From: Branchiostoma floridae | Lineage: Eukaryota; Chordata; Leptocardii; Amphioxiformes; Branchiostomatidae | Reading direction: 5' to 3' | DNA: 64,000 bases | Assembly (NCBI RefSeq): GCF_000003815.2 | Contig: NC_049983.1 | Span: 26,345,003 to 26,409,002, forward strand | In this document: positions 12,601 through 48,600 of the stretch, in pieces | How the letters are laid out: each line of letters begins with the position of its first letter | Numbering within the stretch: position 1 is the first letter of the stretch | Notes under the pieces: generated by a model | Database searches by the model: none | What the model saw: only the letters and a program-made list of their open reading frames with translations | What the model was told of the DNA's origin: nothing | Position numbers and translations under genes: made by a program

Positions 12601-15600
12601 AGCTCTGGTGGAGTCAGTCGCTACTCTTCTTTATGAACCTGGGAAAGATGCAGAAACGAATGACGGGAATCTTCAAACCCATGCAGTAGAGGACGATCAT
12701 GTCTCTCCAGAGGAGCGCGCTCAAAAGGCGAAACAAGAGGAGGAAGAACAGCGAGCTGAGGTGAAAATTAGACACTTAATGATTCACTTTCAGATCGGAC
12801 TTTTTTTTGAATCTCTGAACGGGGGAAGGGGTCGCTCTTGAGGACCATGTTTAGAATACCTATTACTTCTAAACGGCTCATTATATGGCCACCAAATATT
12901 TAATGACTGATGCAAAAGGAAAATATCAGGGTTTTAAGAAATAGGACTGCATTGGACGTAATATTATGCAATTTTGACGTCATCTATTGTATTGGCTGCA
13001 AAAAACATGGCTGCAAGCTCAACATTTTCGGGCAATGACTTGGCTCTTTTGTATGTGTGCTATTAACCGTTCGCTTAAAGCTTCTGTTGGGAAGTTAGTA
13101 CTATTATAGTATTTTGTTTGTGTTTTTTTAAATCTAAGTGGCATGTTTACACCACTGGTGTCAACAGTGTAATGCTTTCTTTCACTATTAGAAGAAAATG
13201 ATTGTCCAGAAAAGCCACAAGGTCCTGGATGACCTGCTCAACGCCATTACCGACCCCATGAGACTTGGAGCCCCGCCAGTAACTATCAAGAGGAGTGGTG
13301 TTACTCTGAAAGCACAGAAGATCCGGGGCTCCATGTTTGGGGGCCAGGTGGTGCAGACGGAGGATGGGGGGTTCCAGTTCCCATCACAAACTGCACTTTT
13401 TCCGGAACATCCACCTCACAACATCACTGTAAAGGTAACAGTCCTCCCTTTCTTCCTCCCTTTCTTCTGTCAGCATTCAGTAAATGGCTTCTTATCCTTT
13501 GGGCTTTCCAACAGAATCAAATTAAAGCAGCCTCTCAAATCTCTTTCTAATCATCTTCATGAAAAAGGTGAGGTGAACACCTCGACTGACATTACGGCTT
13601 TAGTTTAACATATTTTTGTAAATTAGTAACGCTTATAAGGTTTTCTTCTATCTTGTGGGGACAGTAACCAACGAAAAAATAATCTGAAATGAAGAACAGA
13701 AATGTGCTGACCTCAAATTTCACTTTAAAGGAGTAACAAAAATTCCATTACTTTCAGTTGACTCAGTACCAGGAAAACCCATTCACATGGGGCCTTGGCC
13801 AATATCAGGCCCACTCTTCTGTCATGGAACTGACGATTCGCCAGAAAAACTACAAACCCTTGGTCTTCAACAACCTTACTGAAGATTTCATAATCACCAT
13901 TCCGGGCAAGTCCAGAAACACACCAGCGACAAAAATCATCACCTACCCTCTCCCAGGAAACCGAAGTTCGTCCTACCATTTACTGAACCTCAACAGCACT
14001 GCAGAAGCATTCCTGGTCACAATCACCCCGCTGAACACAAGCGTGGTCTACGGCGTGTGGGGCAGGTACGGCGGCCGCCCTGATGACCAAAACTACGACG
14101 TGTCCATGGAGACGTACGTTCTACCCGAGGAGTGTTCCCTGATGGAAACTCTGGGTGGGAATGGACACGACATGGACAAGGCGGAGGCAAGGATGTTCAT
14201 CAAAGGAGTCAAAGATCCAGTTGACTACTATGTCAAAGTCCAAATTCTAGGTGAGATATTTCAGTTTGCATTTCTCATCATTAAGACATAAATAAACTTT
14301 AGTCTCTCCGACAAACTGAATAAGGTATACGTTTGCAGCAGTCGAAACAGTATACCGATTTTCGACAGTGGTTTTTTGAGGTTTTAATCGGTACTCAATA
14401 CCGTAAAAAAAACAAAGATCTTTAAATATTCTCTTCATGCTCTACCATTGCCGAAAGTGTACATACGTTATCACATAGGTCATCGTTTTTCAGGACCGGT
14501 GAGCGAGTGTGACGTCAATGAGCGAACAGAGGAAAAGCATGTACTCGCAAATTCCTTCTACTCCTACCAGATCCAGTGGGCCCGTCTGAGCTGCGTCTTT
14601 TGGAGCGAGACAGAGGACGCCTGGAGGCCGGAAGGCTGCACGGTGGGTAAAACAGCTATATTATATTGCCAAACTTGCAGAGTTTTTTTTGTACCATTTT
14701 ATCAACTATTGATAGTGAATGATATCTTATACGATTATAATCTAATTTGTAACCGATTGTAACCATTTCACTGATGATTGATTATTCCAATAATTACTAT
14801 AAATGGTTTAACATGAAGTATGTCAACATATTCGGAATACTAATTAACATAATGACAATATGATTAAAAGTACATGTAAATTATTAAACTGTTAACGACC
14901 AATGTAACATTTCTAAACATGCAAATGCCAATTTGGATTAGTCGTTTTTATCGACAAAGATGTAACTTTCCGTCTACCCTTTAGATTAGCAACCAGTCCA
15001 CGATTAACAACATCATCTGCCACTGTAACCATCTGACGGCGTTCGGAAGCGATTTCGCCACACCACCTAACAGGGTGGACTTCGGGGCTTTAACTCTTAG
15101 TGATTTACGTGACAACGGTGCGGTGTTGACAACCATCTTCGTGGTGGACTGCCTGTTTCTGCTTACGTTGGTCATAATGAAGGTTACTGGCCTCAGATTA
15201 AAGAGGAAGGTACGTAGAGATTGTCGACAATGCCATCATGATGTGCTGTTTATCAGCTGTTTATATATTTTACAGTGCTCAATGACCCCAAATTTCTTCG
15301 TACATCCTTACAGAAAAGCCCTTCAATCAATCTGGATGACCTGCAGAACGATTTCCGGTACCGCCTGCACCTTTGGACAGGCACCGCTAAGCTTGCCGGG
15401 ACGGAGTCCACCGTTTCCTTCAACCTGTGTGGAGATGAGGCGACCTCCGGAGTGAGAGTGGTCAGCATCACGGAGAAGGTCAGGCATTAAATTACTTTAG
15501 CGTCCATTTTATTCAGTATGAATGATTTCAGGTAGCTCCTAACAGGTCGAATGTTGCTGTTTAGGTTTTCACCCAAGGCGGCCAGGTGACGCTGAACTTC

Positions 15601-18600
15601 AGCACAGCAGAACAGCTGGGTAACGTGGCGCTGCTGCAGCTCATGCACGACAACAGTGGGGAGGGGAGCCGCGCATCGTGGCACGTGGACAGAGCAGCAG
15701 TTCAGGATCTCACCACAGGCAAACTGTGAGTTTTTAGGCTGCTTAGATTCGTCAATTCAATCGCATCTATAAAGTGCACGACCAAGAAAGGAATTACACA
15801 TTATGTTTAGTTTTGTGATGAAGTTAGATATGATATTTTGAAAAGATATAGTTTTTATCATGGCGAAGAACAGACACGACTGCAATTCAGTTCTTTTTGA
15901 TGGATGGTGACAAAAATTAGGCTTGCATATCTTGCCGCGTGATTAAAATAATATAAACCTTATGTCCTAATAATCAAACTTTAGACTCTCTCCGTTTCAT
16001 ACTTCACTAGCTTTAAACAATCCCTATTCCTGACCTTTGTCAAACTGTGAGGTTTAATATGGGTCCTAGAAGAATTAATCTAAGTTATTTTGCCATTAAA
16101 TCATGGAAAAACAGGTTCTACTTCTTCTGCGATGAGTGGCTGGCAGCCGACCGCGGGGACGGACAGGTCGCGAAGACCTTTCCTGTCGCCACTGAGCAGG
16201 ACCTGCGATCCTTCGGGTTTCTGTTTCCGGCAAGTCTGCGGAGCAATCTTGTAGAGGAGCACCTCTTTTTTTCCGTCGCTATCATGCCTACAGGTAAACG
16301 TGTATATTTACTACATATTAGATCTATCTGTATTACACTTGCTGAAGGATTCCTACAAGTTGAAATGAGGAGCTAGGTGTCTATAGGACAGAAGTAGTTC
16401 TGCTAGTTTTCCTGCTCATCTGGCGAAAAATCCACAGGAGAATCCGAATTATCATCAGATGACTGCGGAGCAACCAATCCCAAGTTTCTATCCATAACTG
16501 ACGGACCTCAGCCAGTACAGCAATAGTGCATTAGGAAAAAAGCATAGAGATAGTTCTTCTATGCATGGAATCTTTATGAGTATAGTCAACTTTGTTGTTC
16601 CTGCAAATACAGTAATCAACTGAAGACAGAGTTTCAAATTCTTTTAATTATGGTTGAATATGACCAGAAACTGTTCCTTTACAGGAAGCAAGTTCACCCG
16701 CATCGAGAGGCTTGGCTGCTGCCTGAGTTTTCTCACCTTGTCCATGGTGGCCAGCGCCATGTGGTTGAGCGATGAAAACGCAACCCAAGTTGTGCAGGCC
16801 GTCAGCCTGGGGCCGTTCTCCTTCACCTTGAACACAGTTTACACGGGAATCATGGCCAGCATCACCTGCCTTCCCGCCGTCATGGCCATCGTTGTGCTGT
16901 TCCAGTACAGCCGACCGAACAGCAAGGGCGGTCGTCCGGTCAGGGACGCGGAGACAGCCGGACCAGCTGAGGCACCCACACAGCAAGAACCAGCCAAGGG
17001 CCTGCCACACTGGTGCAAGAACGTGGCCTGGGTGCTAGTGGTGCTGTCTGCCGTGGGGTCATCTGTCTTCACCGTGCTGTACAGTCTGGAGTGGGGCAAG
17101 GACAAGTCCGAGAGGTGGCTTTCTGCGTTCTTCACCACTTTTCTGGCGGACATATTTCTTCTGCAACCAGTGAAGGTTTGTGCCGAAATGTCTTGTCATG
17201 CTCTGCTGTTTCAAAACGTTTTTCCTTTGAAACAGAAGCAAATTAAGTCAAGTACCATCGGGTTTGCATGTTATTAAAACGTTGGGGATTGTGATGGGTA
17301 CATGTCATGTCCATCCATAGATCTAGAAGCGTTGCTTGTCTTATTGTATATAAATGTCAAATCGGGATTTGAACAATACTAATGTTTATTATATAACCTC
17401 TTCAGAACGTGCTGTATAAACCCTAAAAATCCTGCTAGCTGCTGTCTCCTTAGTCAACGTCATGTTTATGCTGGAGATGTCGACAAATTTCTCAATATCA
17501 AACACTTAATGTTACAGGTCTTGGTTCTGGCGATCGTCTTTTCATCCGTTTTCCAAAGACACACCTTGAAGATAATTTTTGAAAATGAAGAGGACAAAGT
17601 TGTCTTGCAGGACACTACTGTGGCGTCAAAAAAGCAGAAGGAGTTTGACAGTGAGTCATGAAAAACTTGATGTAAAGCCGCAACACTCATCTTGCAGTTA
17701 TTATTTGTTACGTTATTATCCAAGGATACGACATTTGCGTTCCGATTGTTCTGCGTTCTATATCTTCACGTAATTACTAATCGATTTTATGTTTACTTTC
17801 AACAAAGGTGGTCGATTCCGGGTAAAGAAGAAAATGGAAAGACTGTCTCAGATGTCCCTTGCAAACGTTAACGAAGCGCAACAGAAGCGGAACAGAGACA
17901 GGCGAATCGGAAACCTCCTTTGGGACATCATCCTGTCTTGTGCTCGCCTCCTGCTTGCTCTGACTATCATTAACGGACACCACAACACCAACACGGCCTT
18001 CCATCAGACACAGAGCGCTGCAGAAAATTTCGTGCAGTCCATTGACGACGTGAGTGCATCACTGCGTTCTTTTATACGCAGCATTTGGGAAAGGGTGTGC
18101 ATAACAACATGCATACGTTAGCACTCACTGTCATCAAAGTCATTAAAAATATTGCTGATATACGCACAAGTTTCATGCAGCTTCTGAAAAGGAAAAAAAT
18201 CTGATCTTATCTTTTATCATCTGATGTAGTCTTTTATTGAGAAGCAAACCATATGTAGAATATGTCAATGGTTTATGAATATATCCACATATTCTATCCT
18301 TCCAGGTGACAGAGCCTTCTGCCGTCTGGCCCTGGCTGAACGAGACCGCTCTGGAGAGCTTCTACCCGGAGACTTCCTACAATGACGACAAGCCCCGCTG
18401 GTGGGAGAAGGTCTTCACAACCGACATGCAGTCGGTCCTGGTCTCCCCACCCATCCTGATTCAAGCCCGAGTAAAGCCAGGTTGGTTGAACTGCTTTTTA
18501 CGTAGGACTAAAAAAAATAAACATACGTTACTATAGGGTACAAATTTGACAGAAGACTGAGCCTGTACAACTTTTATCAACATCGTTTCAACGAGACTTG

Positions 18601-21600
18601 CGTAAAACTTACGGACTGTCTGAAAGATGATTACATTTGCAGCTAACTACTATGACTTCCATTCTCATTCAATCCTAGGGCTGTGCAAAGTGCCTGCGAC
18701 AATGCAGGACTTGTTTGATGAATGTACAGCAGCGTATGGTGAAAATACGAAGGAGACCGGAGTGTTTCAAAAGGGGTGGAAGAGGGTTACGAATATGTCG
18801 GAGGTGGAGTCAGAAACCTCTGGATGGTGCCATCGTCCCATCGGTTACACCATCAAACCCGTCTTTGGTGTAAAATCGCACTACTGGGGAGACGGCTTCA
18901 GTCTGGGCCTGGGAGATTCAGCAGACGAGATGCGCAGCATCCTAGCAGACCTGAAGTCCAACCACTGGATTGACAAGCGAACAAGAGCCGTCATTGTGGA
19001 ACAATTCGTCTACAACGGAAACTTGGATATGTTCACTTCGGTGACGGTAGTGTTTGAATTTACCGAGATATCCGGAGTTTTCTCCCATCGTCACCTACAC
19101 ACCTTCCGACTTCATCAACAGCCAGGTACAATCGGGTACATCTACGTCCTGTTGGAAATAATTTACGTCATCTTTCTCCTCTACTCACTGTGGAAAGAGG
19201 CGAAAACGGCACGAGAAGCCGGCTGGGCCTACCTGACGGAGCCATGGAATATCTTCGAAATCTTTAATTTCATCTTGGCCTTCACTGTCATTGCCTTGTA
19301 CGCCACTAACAGAGTCTATGGGACCATGGCTCTGGCGGCTGTCAAGCAAGAGAAAGGTGGGTTATAAACACGTACACTTAACAGTAAAGTTATTACGTTG
19401 GCATTGCACAAAATCCTACAATTATTAAATTTTGAGTCTTATTTGGAATGTTTTTTTATTCGTTTAGATCCACTCCAATATCTCAGATCCGTGGTGAACA
19501 TAAACCTGCTGTACGGATGGTTCCTGTCTTTCCTCGCCTTTGTCAACATCATGAAGTTCCTGCGACTGTTGAGGTTCAACCCACTCCTGTCCAAGCTGAT
19601 GTCCGTCTTCCGGGGAATGGCGGTGGAGTTCTCTGCCTTCATCTTCTACTTCTTCCTCTGCTTCTCAGGATTTGGGATCAGCGCTTATTTCATGTTCGGT
19701 GCCACCGCAACAACGTACAGGTTCATAATTTTAATTGTTCACGGACGGTCAATACTATATAATAGCAGACATGGACAGAAATCAGATTAATGCTAATTTA
19801 CATCTATCCACTGCCTTCAAAATAAGTATTCAAGAACATCAAGTCGACGGTGGTGGTTTAGTTTCATTTCAATTCATTACAACACACTGACATGAAAACG
19901 ACTTCTTCTTTTTTCAGGTCCATCAGTATGTCCTTCTCCACATTGTTCCAGATGTCTCTTGGAGTCTTTGACCACACGGAGCTGACGGAGGCAAACCCCA
20001 TCCTCGGCCCCATCTACTTTGTAACATTCATTTGCTTCATGTTCCTGGTTCTGATGAACATCGCCGTGGCGATCATCGACAGCGCACTTCCGGACGTGCG
20101 GAACCACGTCATGCCTGAAGAGGACCGGTACTTCATCCAAGGGTTGTGGGAACGCTTCACCTCCCTGCTTGGGCTTCAGGAGGCGCCAGTCACAGGTAAA
20201 GAGGTCTAAGTAATGTTGTCTAAGTATTAGAAAACTTAAAGTGCCTTTTTTTTCTTTAATACCAGGTGGCACCCGGTTGGTTTCCATTTGATGTTGTTTG
20301 TATTCAAAGTGTTGGAATGAGAAAATTGTATACAATTACAGACGTCCACATCGTGGATACGCTCCATGACAGCCTTATTGAGGTTGAGATCCAAGTTGAG
20401 AGACTGTGGTTGAAGAGACTGTCGCTTTTCAGCTGCAGGCAAGTACGATTCTCTGTGAGATGCATGGGCTGCGTTTTTCCTGTTGCCACACTTACCTCTT
20501 GCCTTCCCTATTCTGAACTGTAGTGATGCGGCTCAACATTCTTTCCAGAGCGTGGTCGACTTGCCGTGGTCTTGGAGCGAATGTTTCAGTGTGTTTCACA
20601 TAACAGTGGCATTGGGCCCAGGACCTATTGATAAATGTCAATGTTACCCCCGCTGTACCCTTTTCATTGGTTTTGGTGTCCTCTTGCTCTGCATTAAAAA
20701 TGGAAGACAAGACAAAGGCTTACCTGACGTCTAACTGAGTCCTAACATTTGATACTTTCCACTTCCAAATTTTAAACGCTTTGCTGCCAATATTTACAAA
20801 GCTGTTTCTACCTGCACAGGATGAAGAATACGGACCTCCCTACGAAACCTGACTTCGTCCCGCCAGTCAAGAACGTCCTCAAGGACGGAGCCGAGGAACG
20901 TCAAGCTCCAAGAGAAGACCTTCCCGTCATTGTTATCCGCCCTGCTTCCCACAACAACGGCGTAGTGGACGAATCCGGGAACAGCGCAATGGCGGAGGTG
21001 GGTCCAAGTTCAAGTGACAGTTACGAAGAAGAAAATGTCGCAGAAGATAAAGATTTGGCTGTGGTCAAGTCCTCCACACCTCTTTCGCTTGGAAAGATGC
21101 TGACATACAACGACATCCAAGCTGCCCAAAACCTGCTCCGCCGCCAGTATCCGGCACTCCAAGGGCTGGAAGACCCTGTATTCGGTCTCTATGACGTAGG
21201 ATTTGCCAAGTTGACTGGAAAGGGGCTACAAATCCACCACAGTGGTAGCGGTACCATGCACTGGGTGCTGTCGTCTTACACAGACGGACAGGTATGCCTG
21301 TATGACAGCCTCGGTGTCGCCATGAGCAAATCCCTGCAGATTCAGCTTTGCCAGTCTTACTCCGGATTTGCTGACCAGGAAACAAACGTCTTGGCCGTCT
21401 TGGTACCGGAGGTACAGCATCAATGGGATGCCGAAGATTGTGGGCTGTTCGTCATCGCCTGGGCAGTGGATATCGCAGAGGGGCAAGACGTGAGCAAGGT
21501 TGTGTATGACGAAATGAAGATGAGGAGCCATTTGGAGATGTGCTTCAAAGAAGAGAAACTCAGACCGTTTCCACGTCTGACCAGCCGCAGATGGAGGGTC

Positions 21601-21768
21601 GGCCCAACCAGTGCACACCAAATCTCACTGGTCTGCCGCTGCAAACACGTTGGGCGTCTGGGAAGGATGGAGAGGTGCAAGGCATGCCGGAGGATCTTTC
21701 ACGTCAGCTGCCTGGCAGCCAGCCCTCCCCGTGACGGCACATGGGCTTGTGGAGACTGTGCCGTGTAG
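431..21768 (+). CDS. Polycystin-1-like receptor-channel with C-terminal Ulp1-like protease and PHD finger, copy 1 (5' partial)
   Basis: The exons I could join in phase are 431-611, 951-1196 (frameshifted), 2162-2254, 3170-3416, 3891-4132, 4863-5088, 5359-5591, 6236-6351 (runs into a gap), 7218-7493, 7712-7984, 8134-8256, 8649-8750, 8964-9239, 9510-9776, 9927-10091, 10220-10378, 10517-10575, 10891-10971, 11462-11533, 11628-11765, 11946-12036, 12603-12760, 13192-13434, 13758-14250, 14494-14642, 14985-15209, 15314-15478, 15565-15725, 16115-16293, 16685-17175, 17518-17650, 17808-18049, 18306-18480, 18679-19356, 19468-19720, 19918-20195, 20342-20438 and 20820-21768. GAIN/GPS, PLAT, eleven membrane segments and the TOP domain define the polycystin-1/PKD1L class of ciliary or sensory membrane receptors. 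The signal peptide and first two exons lie before the window. One laminin-type EGF exon is probably inside the gap. One base too many in exon 951-1196 breaks the frame, so this copy may be a pseudogene, an allele or a misread. All other visible exons are open and in phase. Confidence 0.88.
951..1196 (+). pseudogene. Frameshifted second half-exon of module 1 (copy 1)
   Basis: The exon starts with CDTEYNSDPY, as expected for the second half of the module. Near 1072-1080 it reads ttcggag where the other copy reads gttaag. It is therefore 246 bp instead of 245 and shifts frame, reaching a stop at 1120-1122. The cysteines after the shift (SGCGGYC and VCKG in copy 2) are present only in the other frame. 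The extra bases resemble a short repeat of the nearby cttcggagt. It may be a real inactivating mutation, an allele or a sequencing error. Confidence 0.7.
2162..2254 (+). CDS. EGF-like domain 1 (copy 1)
   Basis: This phase 1-1 exon of 93 bp encodes one EGF-like domain starting GNGGCQ, with C-x-C (CTC) and a closing CEG. It separates six-cysteine modules 1 and 2. Such symmetric exons are typical of shuffled extracellular modules. Confidence 0.75.
2430..2575 (-). mobile_element. tRNA-derived SINE (copy 1)
   Basis: Read on the - strand it has an A-box-like TGGCATAGATACAGG and a B-box GGTTCGATCC, spaced as in a tRNA, followed by an unrelated body. The same element occurs in copy 2, so it predates the duplication. 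A tRNA-derived SINE family (BfSINE1) is known from amphioxus; membership is not tested. Confidence 0.6.
2755..3147 (+). mobile_element. LINE 3' fragment specific to copy 1
   Basis: It encodes the last piece of a LINE protein (VEDEMHFICQCSHHSSERMK, similar to the knuckle region of the LINE near 61,500). It ends with the tail GCATGAATTTGCAATAAAG. Copy 2 has no such insert at the matching place, so it arrived after the duplication or is polymorphic. Short TTGATATTACC-like sequences flank it. Confidence 0.75.
3170..4132 (+). CDS. Six-cysteine module 2 (copy 1), two exons
   Basis: Exons 3170-3416 and 3891-4132 encode the second copy of the unknown module. The first exon has FLAIEARLPADG, WCTDYMYLC and GLRPTG. 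The second has CVTEYNSDPY, a C-x4-C pair in RHCSYNYCNRD and the closing VYTVCKG. The second exon has no usable GT donor in the required phase. A GC donor directly after the lysine codon (AAAG|GCAGAG) gives the phase-1 join to module 3, and copy 2 has the same arrangement. Confidence 0.7.
4195..4730. repeat. G-depleted minisatellite (copy 1 intron)
   Basis: Over 500 bp of degenerate tandem units built from CACCCAC, ATCCACTTAC and TTCACCCGAACCACC. The + strand has almost no G. It lies in the intron between modules 2 and 3. The matching place in copy 2 is an assembly gap. Confidence 0.85.
4863..5591 (+). CDS. Six-cysteine module 3 (copy 1), two exons
   Basis: Exons 4863-5088 and 5359-5591 encode the third module. 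Motifs are FFAIEARIPSDG, WCRDYQNLC, TGCGENYA (one extra cysteine), CVDEYNSDPY, GTCPLASCQRKISD and VYTVCTG. The first exon ends in phase 2 at EHIR and the second in phase 1, as in modules 1 and 2, so the three modules arose by duplication of one two-exon unit. Function unknown. Confidence 0.72.
6236..6351 (+). CDS. EGF-like domain 2, truncated by gap (copy 1)
   Basis: The visible part starts DGCANENGGC and continues through the EGF cysteines to HGC at the gap edge. The complete exon in copy 2 is 120 bp. The following laminin-type EGF exon is expected inside the gap, because copy 2 has it at the matching place. Confidence 0.75.
6352..7020. other. Assembly gap (669 N)
   Basis: This run of N hides the end of EGF domain 2, an intron and probably a laminin-type EGF exon of copy 1. 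No conclusion about missing domains in copy 1 should be drawn here. Confidence 0.99.
7218..7984 (+). CDS. Fibronectin type III domains 1 and 2 (copy 1)
   Basis: Two exons, 7218-7493 and 7712-7984, each encode one complete fibronectin III domain in phase 1-1. The first has the pattern PMNLTVSDI, VTWLPS, GYRVVVSGLD and TDYIIRV. The second has LSFTWVPPD, GYRIIYGQ, GLQPDTMYKLEI and the closing NATG. These are beta-sandwich adhesion modules of the extracellular stalk. They are paired again further on, so the two-domain unit was duplicated. Confidence 0.9.
8134..8750 (+). CDS. EGF-like domain 3 plus laminin-type EGF (copy 1)
   Basis: Exon 8134-8256 encodes an EGF domain starting EPDECATVNG with NVPGSYRCFC, which resembles calcium-binding EGF. 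Exon 8649-8750 encodes a short cysteine-rich unit starting VCGHCQGG and ending GWKTQLCNE, like laminin-type or TNFR-like EGF. Both are phase 1-1 and separate the two fibronectin III pairs. The calcium-binding assignment rests on the DEC start and is tentative. Confidence 0.8.
8964..9776 (+). CDS. Fibronectin type III domains 3 and 4 (copy 1)
   Basis: Exons 8964-9239 and 9510-9776 encode two more fibronectin III domains. They are close relatives of domains 1 and 2 (PPINLAVSDV, GYRVVVSKLD; then MSSSTDLQFVD, FTWVPPDAVV, SPGPGDRS). Domain 3 resembles domain 1 and domain 4 resembles domain 2, so the pair was copied as a unit. Confidence 0.9.
9927..10575 (+). CDS. Ser/Thr-rich and acidic repeat linker (copy 1)
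   Basis: Three exons (9927-10091, 10220-10378, 10517-10575) encode a low-complexity linker. The first is rich in Thr and Ser and likely O-glycosylated. The second has imperfect five-residue repeats of the type DQSDS, coded by 15-bp units. The third, starting GIKQSSTISP, changes the phase from 1 to 0. The linker separates the adhesion modules from the helical stalk and GAIN region. Confidence 0.75.
10891..12760 (+). CDS. Helical stalk before the GAIN region (copy 1)
   Basis: Five small exons (10891-10971, 11462-11533, 11628-11765, 11946-12036, 12603-12760) join in phase and read as mostly helical sequence. Examples are DVLQRLSQ, RVELISELSS, LDVLQSITRKLGKLD and a charged end rich in Lys, Glu and Gln. 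In PKD1-like and adhesion-GPCR proteins the helical GAIN-A part lies just before the GAIN-B beta sandwich, and I infer the same here. The donor of exon 11946-12036 is taken as GTAAGT, giving phase 1. Confidence 0.7.
13192..15209 (+). CDS. GAIN domain, GPS autoproteolysis site and TM1 (copy 1)
   Basis: Exons 13192-13434, 13758-14250, 14494-14642 and 14985-15209 encode the GAIN beta sandwich and GPS. The GPS cysteines and tryptophans are visible as RLSCVFW, AWRPEGC and CHCNHLTAF. The cleavage tripeptide H-L-T is intact; the cut would fall between bases 15035 and 15036. A hydrophobic stretch around TTIFVVDCLFLLTLVIM is TM1, followed by basic residues RLKRK. In polycystin-1 and adhesion GPCRs this site is cut by the protein itself and the two parts stay together. 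Confidence 0.88.
15314..16293 (+). CDS. PLAT domain (copy 1)
   Basis: Exons 15314-15478, 15565-15725 and 16115-16293 encode an intracellular PLAT (LH2) domain between TM1 and TM2. Motifs are FRYRLHLWTGT, STVSFNLCGDE, LGNVALLQLMHDNSG, FYFFCDEWLA and DGQVAKTFPV. PLAT domains bind lipids or proteins and sit at this place in all PKD1-like proteins. Confidence 0.9.
16685..17650 (+). CDS. TM2-TM5 region (copy 1)
   Basis: Exons 16685-17175 and 17518-17650 encode hydrophobic segments around LGCCLSFLTLSMVASAMWL, TGIMASITCLPAVMAIVVLF, NVAWVLVVLSAVGSSVF and FFTTFLADIFLLQPVKVLVL. A hydrophilic Pro/Glu-rich loop lies between the second and third. This is the membrane block specific to polycystin-1-like proteins and absent from PKD2. 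Confidence 0.85.
17808..18480 (+). CDS. TM6 and start of polycystin TOP domain (copy 1)
   Basis: Exon 17808-18049 has a basic stretch (RFRVKKKMERL), then TM6 (LLWDIILSCARLLLALTI), then NTNTAFHQT. Exon 18306-18480 has EPSAVWPWLNETALESFYP and ILIQARVK. This matches the first transmembrane helix of the channel half and the start of the large extracellular TOP (polycystin) domain. Confidence 0.85.
18679..20195 (+). CDS. TOP domain, TM7-TM11 and pore (copy 1)
   Basis: Exon 18679-19356 starts with GLCKVPATM and a second cysteine in FDEC, the conserved TOP disulfide pair. YQ/FQKGWKR, HYWGDGF and the two helices TM7 (YIYVLLEIIYVIFLLYSLW) and TM8 (FEIFNFILAFTVIALY) follow. Exon 19468-19720 has TM9 and TM10. 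Exon 19918-20195 has the pore loop TLFQMSLGVFDHTEL and TM11 (FICFMFLVLMNIAVAIID). The filter reads L-G-V where PKD2 has L-G-D, so conduction could differ. Confidence 0.9.
20342..20438 (+). CDS. Short cytoplasmic coil exon (copy 1)
   Basis: This exon encodes DVHIVDTLHDSLIEVEIQVE and LWLKRLS, a heptad-like amphipathic helix as found after TM11 in polycystins. It enters in phase 1. Ending at CAG|GCAAGT (a GC donor) leaves phase 2, which is exactly what the next exon needs. If the intron is retained, translation continues for about 28 residues to a stop ending at 20523. Confidence 0.72.
20820..21768 (+). CDS. Terminal exon: Ulp1/SENP-like cysteine protease plus PHD finger (copy 1)
   Basis: A single 949-bp exon, numbered here from its first Met at 20821. 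Residues 1-85 are acidic, Ser-rich and likely disordered. Residues about 95-250 form a Ulp1 (C48) peptidase fold with His147 in MHWVLSS, Asp162 in YDSLG, Gln199 in PEVQHQW and Cys207 in EDCGLF: the His/Asp/Gln/Cys set of SUMO-type proteases. Residues 272-313 form a C4HC3 zinc finger (Cys272, 274, 286, 289, His294, Cys297, 310, 313, with Trp308 before the last pair), a PHD arrangement. The polycystin reading frame continues into it across a GC-AG intron. Proteins with this protease-plus-finger layout are common in invertebrate genomes and often tied to transposons. An independent single-exon gene starting at its own Met is the main alternative. Confidence 0.82.
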
Positions 21769-24255
21769 AGTACAGTCTTCAGCACGCCGTAAAACTCCTT
21801 AAGTCAATACACTACCATTTCTTTCCCAAATTTGTATATACTACTTCTAACCAGATGTCTACTTCAGGAAAGTTACAAGTATATTTACTATGATAAATGC
21901 GTGTACATTCCATAGATATCATAATTTGATATAGTATAGTAATTATATATTAAGTGGGGAAGTTATTTATCAAGAACATGTATAGGATCCAAATGCCTAA
22001 AATCTCGTTGCATGTATAAACATATATTCCTGTATATATTTCATATCTTAATGCTTTGACACATTACACTAAATACTTTTATGATGTCACCTGTGATATC
22101 TATTCAATATATTTATAAGTGCCTTCATACAATAAGTCCGATTAGAAATACGTTCGCGTCCGCTGTTTAAGGCCTTACATCATGACATAAAATTAACACT
22201 ATGGATACCTGTATGCTTTGATGTACTGCATTACATGTAAATATCTTTGTGTTATGCATGATGTAATCGCAACATGTATTTGTACATGAATAGGCTTGAG
22301 ATGTCATTATCAAGTAGTACTTTTATCTCGTTGTAAGTTGTATGTATATTCCAGAGATACCTGGATAATAATGTGCGTTAATCGTCTACACAGAACATGC
22401 GAACATCATACGTCCCATTAGCAAGAAGCTTTGTTATAGGCATGGCGAGAGAACATAAAAGTTGATGTATGAAACTATGTCAAAGAAAATCAGGGTATGT
22501 CCTACTTGTAGATGGGCGTGTTGTTGTGCATGTGCTATTTATTTATTTATTTATTTCTGTAATCTTTATCCAGGGTGGTCCAAGCTCAGTGCTCTTGCAC
22601 TGCTTTTCAGTGGAGCCCTGCGTGTTACATAAAAAGAAATTAAACATATTCATCACAAACATAGGCAAACATAAATAGACAGCAATAAATGAAATGATCA
22701 AATAACAATGGTAATGAAACTGATATAAACAATAATACTAATCATAACAATAGATGCTGCTAGTGATGATGATATCAATACAAATGATGAATGAAAATAA
22801 TGGTACGAAACTAAAGAAAACAATAATGATAATAACAAAATAAATACTATCAAGTTGTCATTTTCATTGAGTGGTCAGGGGTCAGGCTAGCCAAGCCCTG
22901 CATTTGGTTTTAAAGGTAGATTTTGACGTGCAGGTCTTTACAGATGGTGGAAGACTGGTGGATGTGCTAGCGTAGCTAGAACGGGGTGGCCTTCAACAGT
23001 ACACAGGAGGGTGTGGGCCATGAATATTTGATGACGCTTTGTGCGTCGGCGTTCATGTGGAAAAGGAACATGTGAAACGTTACAATGTGGCAGATCGGGT
23101 TCACCCTACTCATGAACGATACAAATACTTTTCTTCATGGACGGAAGACAACAACGTCTTGGTCTCAACGGCGAGACCTACTGTTTTATTTTAACCACCC
23201 TGTCTTTAACATGATTTTGTGCTTTATACTGAAAACCACAGGAGAAATGGCTTATAGCTGAAGACGGATCCACTCAAAGTTCAAAGGTGATCAGCCATGT
23301 CCCCGCGGTGTCAGAAATACAACGTAAAAGACTTGTAAATGTCCGTCCATTCGGTTGGCAGTTTTCTAAAATTACAGCACTTTGTATAATCTCTATTTAT
23401 CAGTAAACAGTTCTAAACCAACCAAGGCTGAGCCATGGCAAAACATGAAAAGAGAAAGACAATGACGTCCTCTATTCTGTTTGAACTGTTTGTATCAAGT
23501 TTCGGTAATCATGCAAAGATAACGAATATGGCTTGCATTATGCTACAGCGGACCACATACAGCCAAATGTAACAGAAGACCGTTTTATCTGCTATTCTTT
23601 GGTAGGCATACCCAAAGTGTTATACTTGACTTTTCCTGTGACCAGTAATTAACAAAATGCAGTGCATGGTATTTTCTGGTAAACTATAAAAACCATAAAA
23701 GCGATGGTATTTGGTGGTACCTTTCCGAGGTTGTATAGTCTATGCTAGTCTATGCTAGTGTTTTTTTTATGTAGGAGGGTCTCTGTGGGGGGGAGGGAGG
23801 GAGTTTTCCAGTTGCTTTTATGGACTACGCTCGGATTGGCCAAACTCAGTGCAAAACGATATCATGTCAGCTGATTGGCTAATAAACTCTGTATTATAAG
23901 TGGCAGCTATAGTCAGTGCAATACGATACCCTGTAAGCTGTGGCTATTTCCTAGGGCACCCTGTCCGAACTGCTCAGGACGCCCTGCCCTAACTAGAGTA
24001 GAAATTATAAAAGCAAGTGCGGTACCACTCTCTTGTTATTCTGATGAAGACTTTTGAATAAAAGGTAAATCGGCAAATTGTTCTGTCGCAGCCGTCATTC
24101 TTTTGACATCTTTTCGACTTTACAAATGCACATTTGGTAAGCCTCAGTTTCATCAGCGAGACCGACAAGCTGTGTGCCCAGAGATTAATGATGTTCTCGG
24201 TACGGTTTGAAATGTTTGCATATCAACATTGGGTAAGCATGAGAATTACCATTGG
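21769..24255. other. 3' flank of copy 1 and repeat-rich spacer
   Basis: Up to about 22,490 the sequence matches the 3' flank of copy 2 (49,150-49,890) and is probably 3' untranslated region plus flank. After that the copies diverge. From 22,540 a (TTTA)n tract is followed by sequence such as GGGTGGTCCAAGCTCAGTGC that looks like a transposon end. I see no gene. No clear AATAAA is found close to the stop. Confidence 0.6.
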
Positions 24256-39600: not shown

Positions 39601-42600
39601 GACTTGGCTCTTTTGTATATGTGCTATTAACCGTTCGTAAGCTTCTTTTGGGAAGTTAGTACTATTATAATATTTTTTTTGTGTGTTTTTTTTTCCCTTC
39701 TTTTTATCTAAGTGGCATGTTTCCACCACTGGTGTTTGCAGTGTAATGCTTTCTTTCACTATTAGAAGAAAAAGATTGTCCAGAAAAGCCACCAGGTCCT
39801 GGATGACCTGTTCAACGCCGTTACCGACCCCATGAGACTTGGAGCCCCGCCGGTAACTATCAAGAGAAGTGGGGTTACTCTGAAAGCCCAGAAGGTCCGG
39901 GGCTCCGTGTTTGGGGGCCAGGTGGTGCAGACGGAGGATGGGGGGTTCCAGTTCCCATCACAAACTGCACTTTTTCCGGAACATCCACCTCACAACATCA
40001 CTGTAAAGGTATCAGTCCTCCCTTTCTTCCTCTCTTTCTTCTGTCAGCATCCCCTAACGGGCTTCTCGTCCTTTCCAAAAGAATCAGATTAAAACATCCT
40101 CTTCAATCTCTTTCTTATCATATTCTTGAAAAAGGGGGGGGGGGTGAAAAGGTGAACTTCGACTAACATCACGACTTTAGTTTAACATATTTTTGTAAAT
40201 TAGTAACGCTTATAAGGTTGTCTTCTATCTTGTTGGGACAGTAAACAACGAAAATAGAACCTGAAATGAAGAACAGAAATGTGCTGACCTCAAATTTCAC
40301 TTTAAAAGGCTAACAAAAATTCCATTACTTTCAGTTGATTCAGTACCAGCAAAACCCATTCACCTGGGGCCTTGGTCAATATCAGGCCCACTCTTCTGTC
40401 ATGGAACTGACGATTCGCCAGAAAAACTACAAGCCCTTGGTCTTCAACGACCTCACTGAAGACTTCATAATCACCATTCCGGGCAAGTCCAGAAACAAAC
40501 CAGCGACAAAAATCATCACCTACCCCCTCGCAGGAAACCGAAGTTCGGCCTACCATTTGCTGAACCTCAACAGCACCGCAGAAGCATTCCTGGTCACAAT
40601 CACCCCGCTGAACACAAGCGTGGTCTACGGCGTGTGGGGCAGGTACGGCGGCCGCCCTGATGACCAAAACTACGACGTGTCCATGGAGACGTACGTTCTT
40701 CCCGAGGAGTGTTCCCTGATGGAAACTCTGGGTGGGGATAGAGACGACATGGACAAGAGGGAGGCAAGGATGTTCATCAAAGGAGCTAAAGATCCAGAGG
40801 ACTACTATGTCAAAGTCCAAATTCTAGGTGAGCTGAACTATTTTACATTTCTCATGATCAGGACAGAAATAAACTTCAGTCTCTCTGACAGACTAATAAA
40901 TAAGGTAAACGTTTGCAGCAGTCGAAACTGTATACCGATTTTCTGCAGTGGTTTCTTTAGGTTTTAATCGGTACTCAATACCGTGAAAATGGGCAAATAT
41001 TTTACAAATATTATTTTCATGCTCTACCATTGTCGGAATTGTACATATGTATTTACATAAGTCGGATTGAGTCCTGGAATGTAATAAAGTATGTTATTTA
41101 TGAAGAAGGAATTGTCTTCGTTTCTTCAGGACCGGCGACCGAGTGTGACGTCAATGAGCGAACAGAGGAAAAGCATGTACTCGCAAATACCTTCTACGCC
41201 TACGAGTTCCAGTGGGCCCGTCTGAGCTGCGTCTTCTGGAGCGAGACAGAGGACGCCTGGAGGCCGGAAGGCTGCACGGTGTGTACAACGGCCATATTAT
41301 ATTGCCAAACTTGCCGAGTTTTGTTGCCATTTTATCAACTATTAATAGTGAATGATATCTTATACGATTATAATCTAATTTGTAACCGATTGTAACTATT
41401 TCATTGATGATTGATTATTCCAATAATTACCAAAACTGGTTTAACCTGCAGTGTGTCAACATATTCGGAGTACTAATTAACATAATGACAATGTGATTAA
41501 GAGTACATGTAAATTATTAGACTGTTAAGGACCCATTTAACATTTCTAAACATTGGATTAGTCGTTTTTATCGACAAAAATGTAACATTTCTGTCTACCC
41601 TTTAGATTAGCAACCAGTCCACGATTAACAACATCATCTGCCACTGCAACCATCTGACGGCGTTCGGAAGTGACTTCGCCACACCACCTAACAGAGTGGA
41701 CTTCGGGGCTTTAACGCTTAGTGATTTACGCAACAACGGCGCGGTGTTGACAACCATCTTCGTGGTGGACTGCCTGTTTTTGCTCGCGTTGGTCATAATA
41801 AAGATTATTGACCCTAGATTAAAGAGGAAGGTAAATGGGCATAATCGACAATGACTCAATTTCATAAACAACTTGGAACTTTGTCGCGTGTTCTGAATTT
41901 TTTAGATATATTTTATCAATATTCCATTTTTTTCATTCTTACAGAAAAACTCTTCCATCACACTGGATGACCTGCAGAATGATTTCCGGTACCGCCTGCA
42001 CCTTTGGACAGGCACCGCTAAGCATGCTGGGACGGAGTCCACAGTTTCCTTCAACCTGTGTGGAGATGAGGCGACCTCCGGAGTGAGAGTGGTCAGCATC
42101 TCGGAGAAGGTCAGGCATCAAATTCAGTAGCGTCCTTTTTATTCCTCAAGAATACTTTCACTCAAACAAGAATACTTTCACTCAGACAGGTAGATCTTAA
42201 CAAGTCGAATGCTTGTTGCTGTTAAGGTTTTCACCCAAGGCAGCCAGGTGACGCTGAACTTCAGCACAGCAGAACAGCTGGGTAACGTGGCGCTGCTGCA
42301 GCTCATGCACGACAACAGTGGGGAGGGGAGCCGTGCATCGTGGAACGTGGACAGAGCAGCAGTGCAGGATCTCACCACAGGCAAACTGTGAGTTTTTAGG
42401 CTGCTTAGATTCGTCAATTCAATTGCATCTATAAAGTGCACGACCGAGAAAGGATCTACATATTATGTTTAGTTTGTGATGAAGTTAGATATGATATTTT
42501 GAAAAGATATAGTTTTTATCATGGCGAAGAACAGACACGACTGCAATTCAGTTCTTTTTGATGGATGGTGACAAAAATTAAGCTTGCATATCTTGCCGCG

Positions 42601-45600
42601 TGATTAAAATAATATAAACCTTATGTCCTAATAATAAAACTTTAGACTCTCTCCGTTTCATACTTCACTAGCTTTAAACAATCCCTATTCCTGACCTTTG
42701 TCAAACTGTGAGGTTTAATATGGGTCCTAGAAGAATTAATCTAAGTTATTTTGCCATTAAATCATGGAAAAACAGGTTCTACTTCTTCTGCGATGAGTGG
42801 CTGGCAGCCGACCGCGGGGACGGACAGGTCGCGAAGACCTTCCCTGTCGCCACTGAGCAGGACCTGCGATCCTTCGGGTTTCTGTTTCCGGCAAGTCTGC
42901 GGAGCAATCTTGTAGAGGAGCACCTCTTTTTTTCCGTCGCTATCATGCCTAAAGGTAAGCGTGTGTATTTACTACATATTAGATCCATCTGTATAACACT
43001 TGCTGAAGGATTCCTACAAATTAAAATGAGGATGTGTATATAGAACAGAGTTCTGCTAGTTTGCGTGATCATCTGCCGAAAAATCTTCAGGAGAATCCGA
43101 ATAATCATCAGTTGACTCTGGAGCAATCAATCACACGTTTTCATCCATAACTGACGGACCTCAGCCAGTTCAGCAATAGTGCATTGATTAGGAAAAAGCA
43201 TATAGATGGTTCTCCCATGCATGGAATCTTTATGAGTATAGTCAACTTTTTGTTCCTGCAAATACACTTAACTGAAGACAGAGTTTCAAATTCTTTTAGT
43301 TATGGCAGCATCTTACCAGTAACTTTTTAACTTACAGGAAGCAAGTTCACCCGCATCGAGAGGCTTGGCTGCTGCCTGAGTTTCCTCACCTTGTCCATGG
43401 TGGCCAGCGCCATGTGGTTGAGCGATGAAAACGCAACTCAAGTTGTGCAGGCCGTCAGCCTGGGGCCGTTCTCCTTCACCTTGAACACAGTTTACACGGG
43501 AATCATGGCCAGCATCACCTGCCTTCCCGTCGTCATGGCCATCGTTGTGCTGTTCCAGTACAGCCGACCGAACAGCAAGGGCGGTCGTCCGGTCAGGGAC
43601 GCGGAGACAGCCGGACCAGCTGAGGCACCCATGCAGCAAGAACCAACCAAGGGCCTGCCACACTGGTGCAAGTACGTGGCCTGGGTGCTAGTGGTGCTGT
43701 CTGCCGTGGGGTCATCTGTCTTCACCGTGCTGTACAGTCTGGAGTGGGGCAAGGACAAGTCCGAGAGATGGCTGTCTGCGTTCTTCACCACTTTTCTGGC
43801 GGACATATTTCTTCTGCAACCAGTGAAGGTTTGTGCCGAAATGTCCTGTCATGCTCTGCTGTTTCAAATCTTAATTCCTTTGAAAAAGAAGCACATTAAG
43901 TACAATGCAATCGGGTTTGCATGTTATTAATGTTATTTTTGCACGTTGGGGATTGTGATGGATACATGTTCATCCATAGATCTAGAAGCATTGGTTGTCT
44001 AATTGTATATAAATGTCAAATCAAGATTTGTACAATACTAATGCATATAATATAACCTCTTCAGAACGTGCTGTACAAACCCTCCACATCCTACTAGCTG
44101 CTGCTTCCTTAATCAACGTCGACAAAATTGTCAATATCAAACACTTAATGTTACAGGTCTTGGTTCTGGCGATCGTCTTTTCATCCGTTTTCCAAAAACA
44201 TACCTTGAAGATGATTTTTGAAAATGAAGCGGACAAAGTTGTCCTGCAGGACACCACTGTGGCGTCAATAAAGCAGAAGGAGTTTGACAGTGAGTCATTA
44301 AAAACTTGATGTAAAGCCGCAACACTCATCTTACAGTTATCATTCGTTACGTTATTATCCAAGGATACGACATTTGTGTTCCGATTGTTCTGCGTTCTCT
44401 TTACGTAATTACTGATTGATTGTATGTTTACTTTCAACAAAGGTGGTCGATTCCGGGTAAAGAAGAAAATGGAAAGACTGTCTCAGATGTCCCTTGCAAA
44501 CGTTAACGAAGCGCAACGTAAGCGGAACAGAGACAGGCGAATCGGAAACCTCCTTTGGGACATCATCCTGTCTTGTGCTCGCCTCCTGCTTGCGCTGACT
44601 ATCATTAACGGACACCACAACACCAACACGGCCTTCCATCAGACACAGAGCGCGGCAGAAAACTTCGTGCAGTCCATTGACGAGGTGAGCACGTCATTGC
44701 AGTCTTTAAAACGTAGCTTTTGGGGGGGGGATGCTTTCTCTAGTTCTCACTGTTATAACTGTCATTAAGAAATACTGCTGAAATACGCACAAGCCACATG
44801 CAGCGTAGCAAAATGTACCCAGGATATGAAAAATGTAAATCTTTTGTCATCTGATCTAGCTTTTTATCATGAAGCATACCAATTGTAGAATATGTCAATG
44901 GTTTATGCATATGTCCACATATTCCATCCTTCCAGGTGACCGAGCCTTCTGCCGTCTGGCCCTGGCTGAACGAGACCGCTCTGGAGAGCTTCTACCCGGA
45001 GACTTCCTACAATGACGACAAGCCCCGCTGGTGGGAGAAGGTCTTCACAGCCGACATGCAGTCGGTCCTGGTCTCCCCACCCATCCTGATTCAAGCCCGA
45101 GTAAAGTCAGGTTGGTGGAAATGCTTTTTACGAAGGGCTAAAAATAAACATTCGTAACTATTGACTTAAAGACCAACCCCGTACTATAAAACCACCCAAT
45201 AAATTCGGCTAACGTAAACTACTAGAGCTCAGTCTTCTGTTGACTGTGGTGGAGTTCACATCGGGGAAGGCTGGCTGAGACCCCTGACCAACACAAGTTT
45301 ATTTTCAATTTAATTTTGATATTAGGATACTACATAAGGTATTGAAGTATGATTATACATAAAGCTTTACCTAACCCAGAAAATAAAGCAATGAAAATGC
45401 TGGCTTGTCTTACTCTGGTACTCTGAGACATAACTAACAGTTACAATTGTACAGTCTACATAGCCCCTGTTGGTACACTTACAAATAGACACCACATTAT
45501 TAGCCATATTAGACACATAAATATCAGAGCTAATTCAGTTATAAGGAAGATTTTCAAGTTGCAATTATGTGTTGTAGATAGTCATACAAACAGACACTTT

Positions 45601-48600
45601 GATACAAAGTTGGCAAAGCAGAGTTGAAAGTTTCAATTTGAACACAAGGTTGGTTTCCCAATATTTGAAAGTCACTGTTATTAGGACCTCGATTATGTGA
45701 CTTTGTTACAGCTATCTGGATCATTCTGCAGGGTTTGATAGTGTTTGCTTGAAAACCAGTAGAGAAAAATATTTGAATTTTTGACCAGTATTTTATGCCA
45801 ATCTGTCCCTGCCTTTGTTTCCAGCGTGTAGACAGTCTGTGATGTTTATTAGTTTATGTATTTATAGGGGTCAATTCACCCCTCTAGCTGCTGGGATGGT
45901 CACAGTAGGGAGTACTTCCTTAGTGCTGTGCCCAGGGCACTCCTGTTTGGTCTTTAAACTGCACAACTTTTATCAATTGTTTCAACGCGACTTGCGTAAA
46001 ACTTACGGAGTGTATGAAAGGCGATTACATTTTAGCTATTTCTTTGACTTCCCTCCTTCTTCAATCCCAGGGCTGTGCGAAGTGCCTGCGACAATGCAAC
46101 ACATGTTCGATAAGTGCACGGCAGCGTATGGTGAAAACACGAAGGAGACCGGAGTGTATCAGAAGGGATGGAAAAGAGTCACGAATATGTCGGAGGTGGA
46201 GTCAGAAACCTCTGGATGGAGCCACCGCCCCAGCGGTTACACCATCAAACCCGTCTTTGGTGTGAAATCGCACTACTGGGGAGACGGCTTCAGTCTGGAC
46301 CTGGGAGATTCAGCAGACAAGATGCGCAGTATTCTCACAGACCTGAAGACCAACCACTGGATTGACAAGCGGACAAGGGCCGTCATTGTGGAACAATTCG
46401 TCTACAACGGAAACCTGGATATGTTCACTTCGGTGACGGTAGTGTTTGAATTTACCGAGATGTCCGGAGTTTTCTCCCATCGTCACCTGCATACCTTTCG
46501 GCTTCATCAACAGCCTGGTACAGTCGGCTACATCTACGTCCTGATGGAAATCATTTACGTCATCTTTCTCCTCTATTCGCTGTGGAAAGAGGCGAAAACA
46601 GCACGAGCAGCTGGCTGGGCCTACTTGAAGGAGCCATGGAATATTTTCGAAATCTTTAACTTCCTCTTGGCCTTCTCTGTTATTGCCTTGTATGCCACTA
46701 ACAGAGTGTATGGGTCCATGGCTCTGGCGGCTGTCAAGCAAGGGAAAGGTGGGCTATAAACATGTACACATGTTCATTACGTTGTAACGTTAGTATTGTA
46801 CAAAATCCTACATTTTTTCTTAAATCTTGAGAGGAGGTTTAAAGAAAATAATAACGAACAATTCTTTTGATTCCGTTTAGATCCACTCCAGTATCTCAGA
46901 TCGGTGGTGAACATAAATCTGGTGTATGGATGGTTCCTGTCTTTCCTTGCCTTTGTCAACATCATGAAGTTCCTGCGACTGTTGAGGTTCAACCCACTCC
47001 TGTCCAAGCTGATGTCCGTGTTCCGGGGAATGGCGGTGGAGTTCTCTGCCTTCATCTTCTACTTCTTCCTCTGCTTCTCAGGATTTGGCATCAGCGCTTA
47101 TTTCATGTTCGGTGCCACCGCAACAACGTACAGGTTCATAATTTTAGTGTTTAGAGTGGTTAAGACTATAGCAGACCTGGACAGAAATCGGATTACCGCT
47201 AGTTTACCTTTATCCGCTAGGTAACATATATTCGTTGTCTTTGAAAGAAGGAACATCAAGTCCATGGTGGTGGTTTTAAAAAGAAAAGCGTTACAACACA
47301 CTGACATGAAAACGACTTTTTTTTTTTCAGGTCCATCAGTATTTCCTTCTCCACATTGTTCCAGATGTCTCTTGGAGTCTTTGACCACACGGAGCTGACG
47401 GAGGCAAACCCCATCCTCGGTCCCATCTTCTTTGTAACATTCATTTGCTTCATGTTCCTGGTTCTGATGAACATCGCCATGGCGATCATCGACAGCGCAC
47501 TTCCGGATGTGCGGAACCACGTCATGCCAGAAGAGGACCGGTACTTCATCCAAGGGTTATGGGAACGCTTCACTTCCTTGTTTGGGCTTCAAGAAGCGCC
47601 AGTCACAGGTAATTGCGTCTAAGTTGATGTTGTCCAACACGTGATTTAAATCTTAATGAGCCTTATGTTTCTTACCAGGCGACACCCGGTTGATTTCTAC
47701 TTGATCTTTTTGTTTCATTCAAAGTTTTGGAATGACAAAATTGTACACAATTACAGACGTCCACATCGTGGATAGCCTCCACGACAGCCTTATTGAGGTT
47801 GAGATCCAAGTTGAGAGGCTGTGGTTGAAGAGACTGTCGCTTTTCAGCTGCAGGCGAGTACGGTTCTCTGTGGGATGCATGGATGGAACATTTCCTGTGT
47901 CATCACTTACTTATGCTTTTCCTACCCCTTATGAACTGTAATCTTGCGCTGCTATATTTTAAAAGGTGAGTGAAACCTGTAGACGATTCAATTTGCTTGC
48001 TGAAGGCGCGTCTCTACTTTGCTTTTCTCTTCCCTCTTCTGATTTTCTAACGCTTCTGAACCCAATTATGGTATTGATCCATTGTTACATACATATGATC
48101 CTTACCATGTGACCTGTACTTAGCCCAGTGGGGCAAAAATGTGCAATAAAGGTCTTCATTCATTTATTCATTCATTAACCTTATAGTTTTACATGTACAG
48201 GATGAAGAATGCAGACCTCCCTACGAAACCTGACTTCGTCCCACAAGTCAAGAATGTCCTCAAGGACGGAGCCGAGGAACCTCAAGCTCCAAGAGAAGAT
48301 CTTCCCGTCATTGTTATCCGTTCTGCTTCCCAAAACAGCGGCATCGAGGACGAATCCGGGAACAGTGCAGTGGTGGAGGCGGGTCCAAGTTCAAGTGACA
48401 GCTACGAAGAAGAAAATGTCACAGAAGATAAAGATTTGGCTGTGGTCAAGTCCTCCACACCTCTTTCGCTTGGAAAGATGCTGACATACAACGACATACA
48501 AGCTGCCCAAAACCTGCTCCGCCGCCAGTATCCGGCCCTCCAAGGGCTGGAAGACCCTGTATTCGGTCTCTATGAAGTAGGATTTGCCAAGATGACCGGA

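Follow-up and report, generated by a model that had tools for sequence, protein, structure and literature searches.

The window analyzed here (the whole 64,000-nucleotide stretch of the Branchiostoma floridae genome, C5:26345003-26409002) contains two copies of a polycystin gene in which the final exon encodes a protease-like domain and a PHD-like finger. The conserved in-phase junction, the shared divergence of channel and tail, and tail dN/dS ratios of 0.30-0.42 together point to a polycystin subfamily that has undergone duplication and bears a fused tail. Sequence comparison establishes that the junction is conserved, that channel and tail share their history, and that the tail is under purifying selection, and the fusion is very probably real. 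We assign a probability of about 0.8 to the explanation as a whole, namely that this duplicated subfamily carries a transposon-derived Ulp1-PHD tail acting by the mechanism proposed below. A preliminary description of the window had recognized the fusion, which stands, as a feature of a single odd gene, which does not.

Gene organization in the window

The first gene (copy A) is on the plus strand. Thirteen of its last polycystin-gene exons lie at 13758..20195, share their splice sites with the second gene (copy B), and align with it gap-free. As in the polycystin-1 (PKD1/REJ) family, the joined exons encode GPS, PLAT, polycystin domain, and channel pore in this order, with GPS, PLAT, Polycystin_dom, and PKD_channel all above the Pfam cut-offs. 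The channel part matches the solved chains of PKD2, PKD2L1, and PKD1L3. In ten selected upstream open reading frames, representing a partial ectodomain, fn3 and EGF-like matches were found and REJ was absent. Polycystins are known to have a C-terminal coil (PMC1934368). Unlike in the polycystin-1 family, the coil is followed here by a tail of 315 residues that is protease-like and PHD-like. No polycystin with such a tail was found in the polycystin and lancelet literature searched (titles and abstract starts), which is not proof of absence.

The last pore exon of copy A (19918-20195) is followed by a coil exon of 97 bp (20342..20438), the 3' end of which is set by a GC donor in a strong context, CAG|GCAAGT, rather than by GT. 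A GC-AG intron (20439..20819) leads to the tail exon (20820..21768), which starts directly after an ACAG acceptor and spans 949 bp, encoding 315 amino acids plus the stop codon. Coil and tail join in phase at the protein junction ...SLFSCR|MKNTDLP... (SLFSCRMKNTDLPTK). The tail comprises a linker (residues 1-88, 20821..21084), the start motif of which recurs behind the coil exons of the family, a C48/Ulp1-like protease segment (residues 89-255, 21085..21585; Peptidase_C48 E 0.21, under the cut-off), and a PHD-like C4HC3 finger (residues 256-315, 21586..21765; PF00628 E 0.00022, 21.6 bits).

Scored with donor weights based on general consensus frequencies, just two of the 5388 GC dinucleotides on both strands reach at least 8.2, and these are the coil-exon donors of copies A and B. 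No published frequency of GC-AG introns in amphioxus was found in the literature searched. If the coil of copy A is read unspliced, a stop is reached at about 20525. The sequence past the donor is unconserved between copies and across loci, and an ending of the polycystin at this read-through stop was rejected on that ground.

Comparison of the window with itself revealed the gene region twice, at about 1-22498 and 26135-49892. Copy B, also on the plus strand, has the same 13 polycystin exons (40335..47608), including the last pore exon (47331-47608), followed by a coil exon (47757..47853) ending in the GC donor CAG|GCGAGT and a tail exon of 949 bp (48201..49149). Its tail protein is 90% identical to that of copy A with zero indels. 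All 15 modelled terminal exons, the tail among them, align gap-free between the copies, whereas the 13 alignable introns, with 2835 aligned bases, show 62 gap events; at this intron rate 20.8 indels would be expected in the tail exon, against zero observed. In the last intron, homology between the copies is lost beyond about 20530 and the donor and acceptor are retained.

Substitutions between the two copies also indicate constraint. For the tail, dN is 0.047 and dS 0.125, giving a dN/dS of 0.38 (bootstrap 0.22-0.62, or 0.23-0.66 in a second run); the channel part (1240 codons) has a dN of 0.026, a dS of 0.122, and a ratio of 0.22. The dS values of tail and channel part therefore match. For the finger alone, the dN/dS interval extends above 1 (0.12-1.58). 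When the 58 tail substitutions were placed at random, a mean of 40.6 amino-acid changes resulted, compared with 33 observed; 33 or fewer occurred in 74 of 5000 trials, and hence selection is visible in this pair yet modest when taken alone. A chance open reading frame was rejected as the source of the tail on the strength of selection, the zero indels, and the family of copies.

Several other features of the window were observed. The last intron of copy B has a strong GT donor context, AAG|GTGAGT, at 47965 past the read-through stop, as well as an AATAAA at 48145 ahead of a CATT repeat; an alternative ending or a LINE-type insertion is possible. Repeated Cys-containing modules (..EYNSDPY..) occur in the 5' parts of both copies (979-1032, 3784-4198, 27112-27165, and 29817-30231), and two of the module frames, when tested, had no counterpart in Pfam up to an E of 0.1. 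Minus-strand open reading frames at 54352-54783 and 56290-56871 are presumably pieces resembling UDP-glucuronosyltransferase. A tandem array with a 37-bp unit, 9.1 copies, and 96% matches occupies 62488-62824.

Distribution of the fused tail in the genome

A search with the tail protein of the window's own assembly (513.4 Mb, 431 contigs) returned 58 matches, 27 of them with more than 250 bits (65-100% identity). We read 22 of these 27 close copies, comprising the two in the window and 20 elsewhere. A polycystin pore exon lies just 5' on the same strand in 24 of the 27. Among the 22 loci read, 20 have both a pore and a coil exon 5' of the tail on its strand. The other two, on C2, have the tail, with coil or pore not found in about 6-7 kb 5'. 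Four of the five unread loci (C13:13.70, C13:18.61, C9:2.49, and C13:21.16) have, among the matches listed, a same-strand pore match within some 2.5 kb on the 5' side; for the fifth, C12:11.89, there is none among the matches listed. Seven tail copies in both orientations are present at C5:26.28-26.49 Mb, and others are located on C19, C13, C3, C12, C9, C174, and C2.

The junction is uniform across this family. As the preliminary description had proposed for 20342..21768, coil and tail exons join in phase, and they do so at the identical codon, after AG, in all 20 coil-bearing loci. Thirteen of these coil exons have GC donors and seven have ordinary GT donors; the GT donors of the sister group leave little room to question the junction.

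Channel and tail have also diverged together. Their distances are correlated (Mantel r 0.82, n = 19), with none of 9999 permutations giving as high a value. The trees of channel and tail disagree on some details, in that copy A (winA) and L009, as well as L012 and L017, pair only in the channel tree; these trees carry no support values, and the differences may reflect gene conversion. In four groups of copies, tail dN/dS is 0.42, 0.32, 0.36, and 0.30. The tail core is open in 18 of the 22 loci, with one stop each in L018, L024, L026, and L027.

Some loci depart from the common arrangement. A polycystin on C14 (L029, C14:2633900-2637400) has the coil and a GC donor with no tail on C14 among the matches listed; loss of the tail is possible. 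Together with the two C2 tails, this coil with no listed tail match counts against our explanation. A tandem-repeat-like frame was noted near the C14 gene. At a C12 locus (L023:979-2339), four more PHD-like matches stand in tandem behind the tail, and in L027 and L028 a second partial protease and finger are also present. Three distant tail matches on C19 have 46-48% identity. One of these loci (L032) counts in favor of the explanation: behind a pore-like exon, which scores 19.0 bits with PKD_channel (cut-off 22.4), it too carries a C48-like frame, of 396 residues. This frame lacks the finger and by eye has Asn at the position of the catalytic Asp; up to E 1, its Pfam matches do not include C48.

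Of the 21 loci in which the start of the tail exon is readable, 20 have ATG as its first codon. Set beside the conserved junction, this near-constant ATG raises the prospect, which we consider unlikely, that two products are made: the fused channel, and a free tail from an internal promoter or from Met1 of the tail exon. However, the adjoining motif LP.xP.FVP varies as little as the Met, so that a role as start codon is not needed to account for it, and L021 has Ile instead.

The two genes in the window might alternatively be alleles that were placed side by side by the assembly, in which case the duplicate would be no independent gene. Divergence between lancelet alleles is near 95-97% identity, and copies A and B show this level over long stretches of their 5' half. 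Their 3' part is only 86-89% identical, though, and runs of more than three N are absent between 22498 and 26135. Given also the seven tails in both orientations on C5 and the others dispersed over further contigs, we regard this as improbable, and the inferences on coding and junction would hold even for alleles.

Still less probable is that the tail forms a gene of its own, with one exon, either domesticated or still belonging to a mobile element, which starts at the ATG at 20821 behind a polycystin that ends at about 20525. The ATG that opens the tail exon would also suit such a start, which counts against our explanation, as would the C2 tails for which coil or pore was not found. Against this, L021 lacks the Met, and the stretch ahead of the ATG is non-homologous between copies A and B, which means that no shared promoter lies there. 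The read-through end of the polycystin is likewise unconserved between copies and across loci, while the donor is kept at the same codon, whether GC (13) or GT (7), and in phase in 20 of 20 loci. Finally, a decaying and functionless transposon remnant spliced by chance, which might be read from the stops in four of 22 tails and the variation at some catalytic positions, is very improbable given dN/dS of 0.30-0.42 across groups, the zero indels between the window tails, zinc ligands invariant in 23 aligned rows, and 18 of 22 tails open.

Domain identity and source of the tail

The Pfam check of the last exon that had been suggested gave C48-like and PHD-like matches, both under the gathering cut-offs in the window copies. 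For Peptidase_C48, the tail segments score 11.8 bits in copy A and 13.0 bits in copy B (E 0.095) against a cut-off of 20.7; for PHD (PF00628), they score 21.6 and 23.7 bits against a cut-off of 24. With the copy A tail at full length, Pfam gave no C48 up to E 1, and the linker (residues 1-88) matched no Pfam family up to E 10. Among solved proteins, SENP8 alone was matched by the protease segment at E up to 10, with an E of 1; in this alignment His, Gln201, and Cys pair, and Asp162 is two residues off. An alignment of 18 tails, which leaves out the four with stops, was also used: its profile placed PHD fingers at the top (best E 0.0066) and SENP8 next at 0.38, and Pfam reported C48 for nine of the 18 members (best E 0.0012). 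AlphaFold2 models of the two window tails have a mean pLDDT of 33.

The His147, Asp162, Gln199, and Cys207 previously assigned to the protease are present at these positions, but the glutamine of Ulp1/SENP type is Gln201 rather than Gln199. Catalytic Gln and Cys in Ulp1/SENP proteins are spaced as Gln-x5-Cys, and only Gln201 has this spacing to Cys207. Conservation was assessed in an alignment of 23 rows, consisting of the 22 tails and a related C15 protein and including the four stop-bearing tails with the stop as X. Gln199 is kept in 23 of 23 rows compared with 19 of 23 for Gln201 (Tyr in L018-L021), Asp162 is kept in all 23, His147 in 22 (Leu in L020), and Cys207 in 20. All four catalytic residues (His, Asp, Gln, Cys) are present in both window copies. 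The C4HC3 zinc finger is borne out, with eight ligands in both window copies and in every row.

Cys207 is replaced by Ser in three tails at C19:6.43-6.70 Mb (L014:6955-7650, L015:6395-7084, and L016:7101-7796). These copies have open frames and a dN/dS of 0.32, so that the tail is retained in them even though the catalytic Cys is lacking. They are predicted by this substitution to be natural inactive versions, and protease activity cannot be common to every member of the family. For the window copies, the odds of an active protease are about even. The tail thus resembles Peptidase C48 (Ulp1/SENP) in the catalytic residues of the window copies and differs from it in scoring under the Pfam cut-off, in being attached to a membrane channel, and in having Ser for Cys in three copies. 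The scores under the cut-offs, the catalytic substitutions, and the four tails with stops all count against our explanation, as do the differences between the channel and tail trees and the modest selection seen in the pair of copies A and B alone.

Two open frames elsewhere in the genome provide a firmer candidate link of the tail to C48 than the direct Pfam scores do. The first, on C15 (L030), encodes a SWIM-C48-PHD protein that matches the tail with an E of 1.7e-25 and 34% identity over protease and finger; SWIM and PHD are above the Pfam cut-off and C48 scores 16.8 bits. It differs from the tail in having a SWIM finger and, in the 588-residue frame read, no channel. The second, on C8 (L031, C8:16144500-16147500), is a YqaJ-C48 frame of 749 residues that matches the tail with an E of 9.3e-14, has C48 above the cut-off at 27.9 bits, and by eye contains two PHD-like fingers. 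Matches on C1 and C10 resemble the C8 frame in length and identity and have one TAA each; the pattern on C8, C1, and C10 is as for a dispersed mobile element.

These SWIM-Ulp1-PHD and YqaJ-Ulp1 relatives of transposon type make capture from a mobile element likely. There are also published parallels: the transposase of Ginger1-9_HM has Ulp1 and then PHD at its C-terminus, as in the tail, and Mutator elements with Ulp1 are reported from lancelets (PMC2836005). The transposon-type source put forward in the preliminary description is accordingly supported by the C15 and C8 frames and by this transposase. We consider a mobile-element source probable, and infer that the element was the source of the domains and not their taker. 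Unlike in the Ginger1 and Mutator transposases, an integrase or transposase part was not found in the window tail by Pfam. An intact transposon at the tail exon was rejected, there being no transposase and just two short imperfect inverted repeats at 20430-22700. No relatives of the tail were confirmed in collections of viral, bacterial, and archaeal contigs.

Predicted function and significance

We propose that a transposon-type Ulp1-PHD protein became part of a polycystin gene, and that gene and tail were then multiplied in the genome. A single fused protein would be made, with channel pore and coil followed by linker, protease-like domain, and PHD-like finger. On the basis of what is established about C48 enzymes, PHD fingers, and polycystin topology, the tail is predicted to be cytoplasmic and to sit next to the coil, through which polycystins assemble. 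Copies with Cys207 may act on the channel's partners at the membrane and strip them of SUMO or a similar modifier, and those with Ser207 may bind without cutting. The finger, with its invariant ligands, would be the constant binding part. In vertebrate host-transposase fusion genes, splicing similarly joins a mobile-element domain to a host gene. In contrast to these, a membrane protein of channel type is the host here, and a protease and finger, not a DNA-binding transposase, would have been captured.

A nuclear role, as had been suggested for a releasable tail, is a more speculative prospect. Fragments of the vertebrate polycystin-1 tail reach the nucleus and mitochondria (PMC10502374). By analogy with these, a transposon-derived deSUMOylase and chromatin-reader tail could be released upon membrane sensing to carry the effector to chromatin, with the Ser207 copies as natural blockers. 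We consider this reading improbable, and action of the tail in the nucleus, which nothing observed here supports and for which vertebrate polycystin-1 is the sole basis, similarly so. In a crude scan of the tail for at least four K/R per seven residues, only the zinc-finger stretch RCKACRR was found.

If the fused protein is made, a family of sensory channels would have taken in a mobile-element protease and finger for good, and selection would have preserved them across about two dozen copies of the gene. SUMO-type regulation would then be tied directly to a polycystin, a link absent from the literature searched (titles and abstract starts). Since the family naturally includes both Cys207 and Ser207 copies, one could test directly whether catalysis or binding is the selected property.
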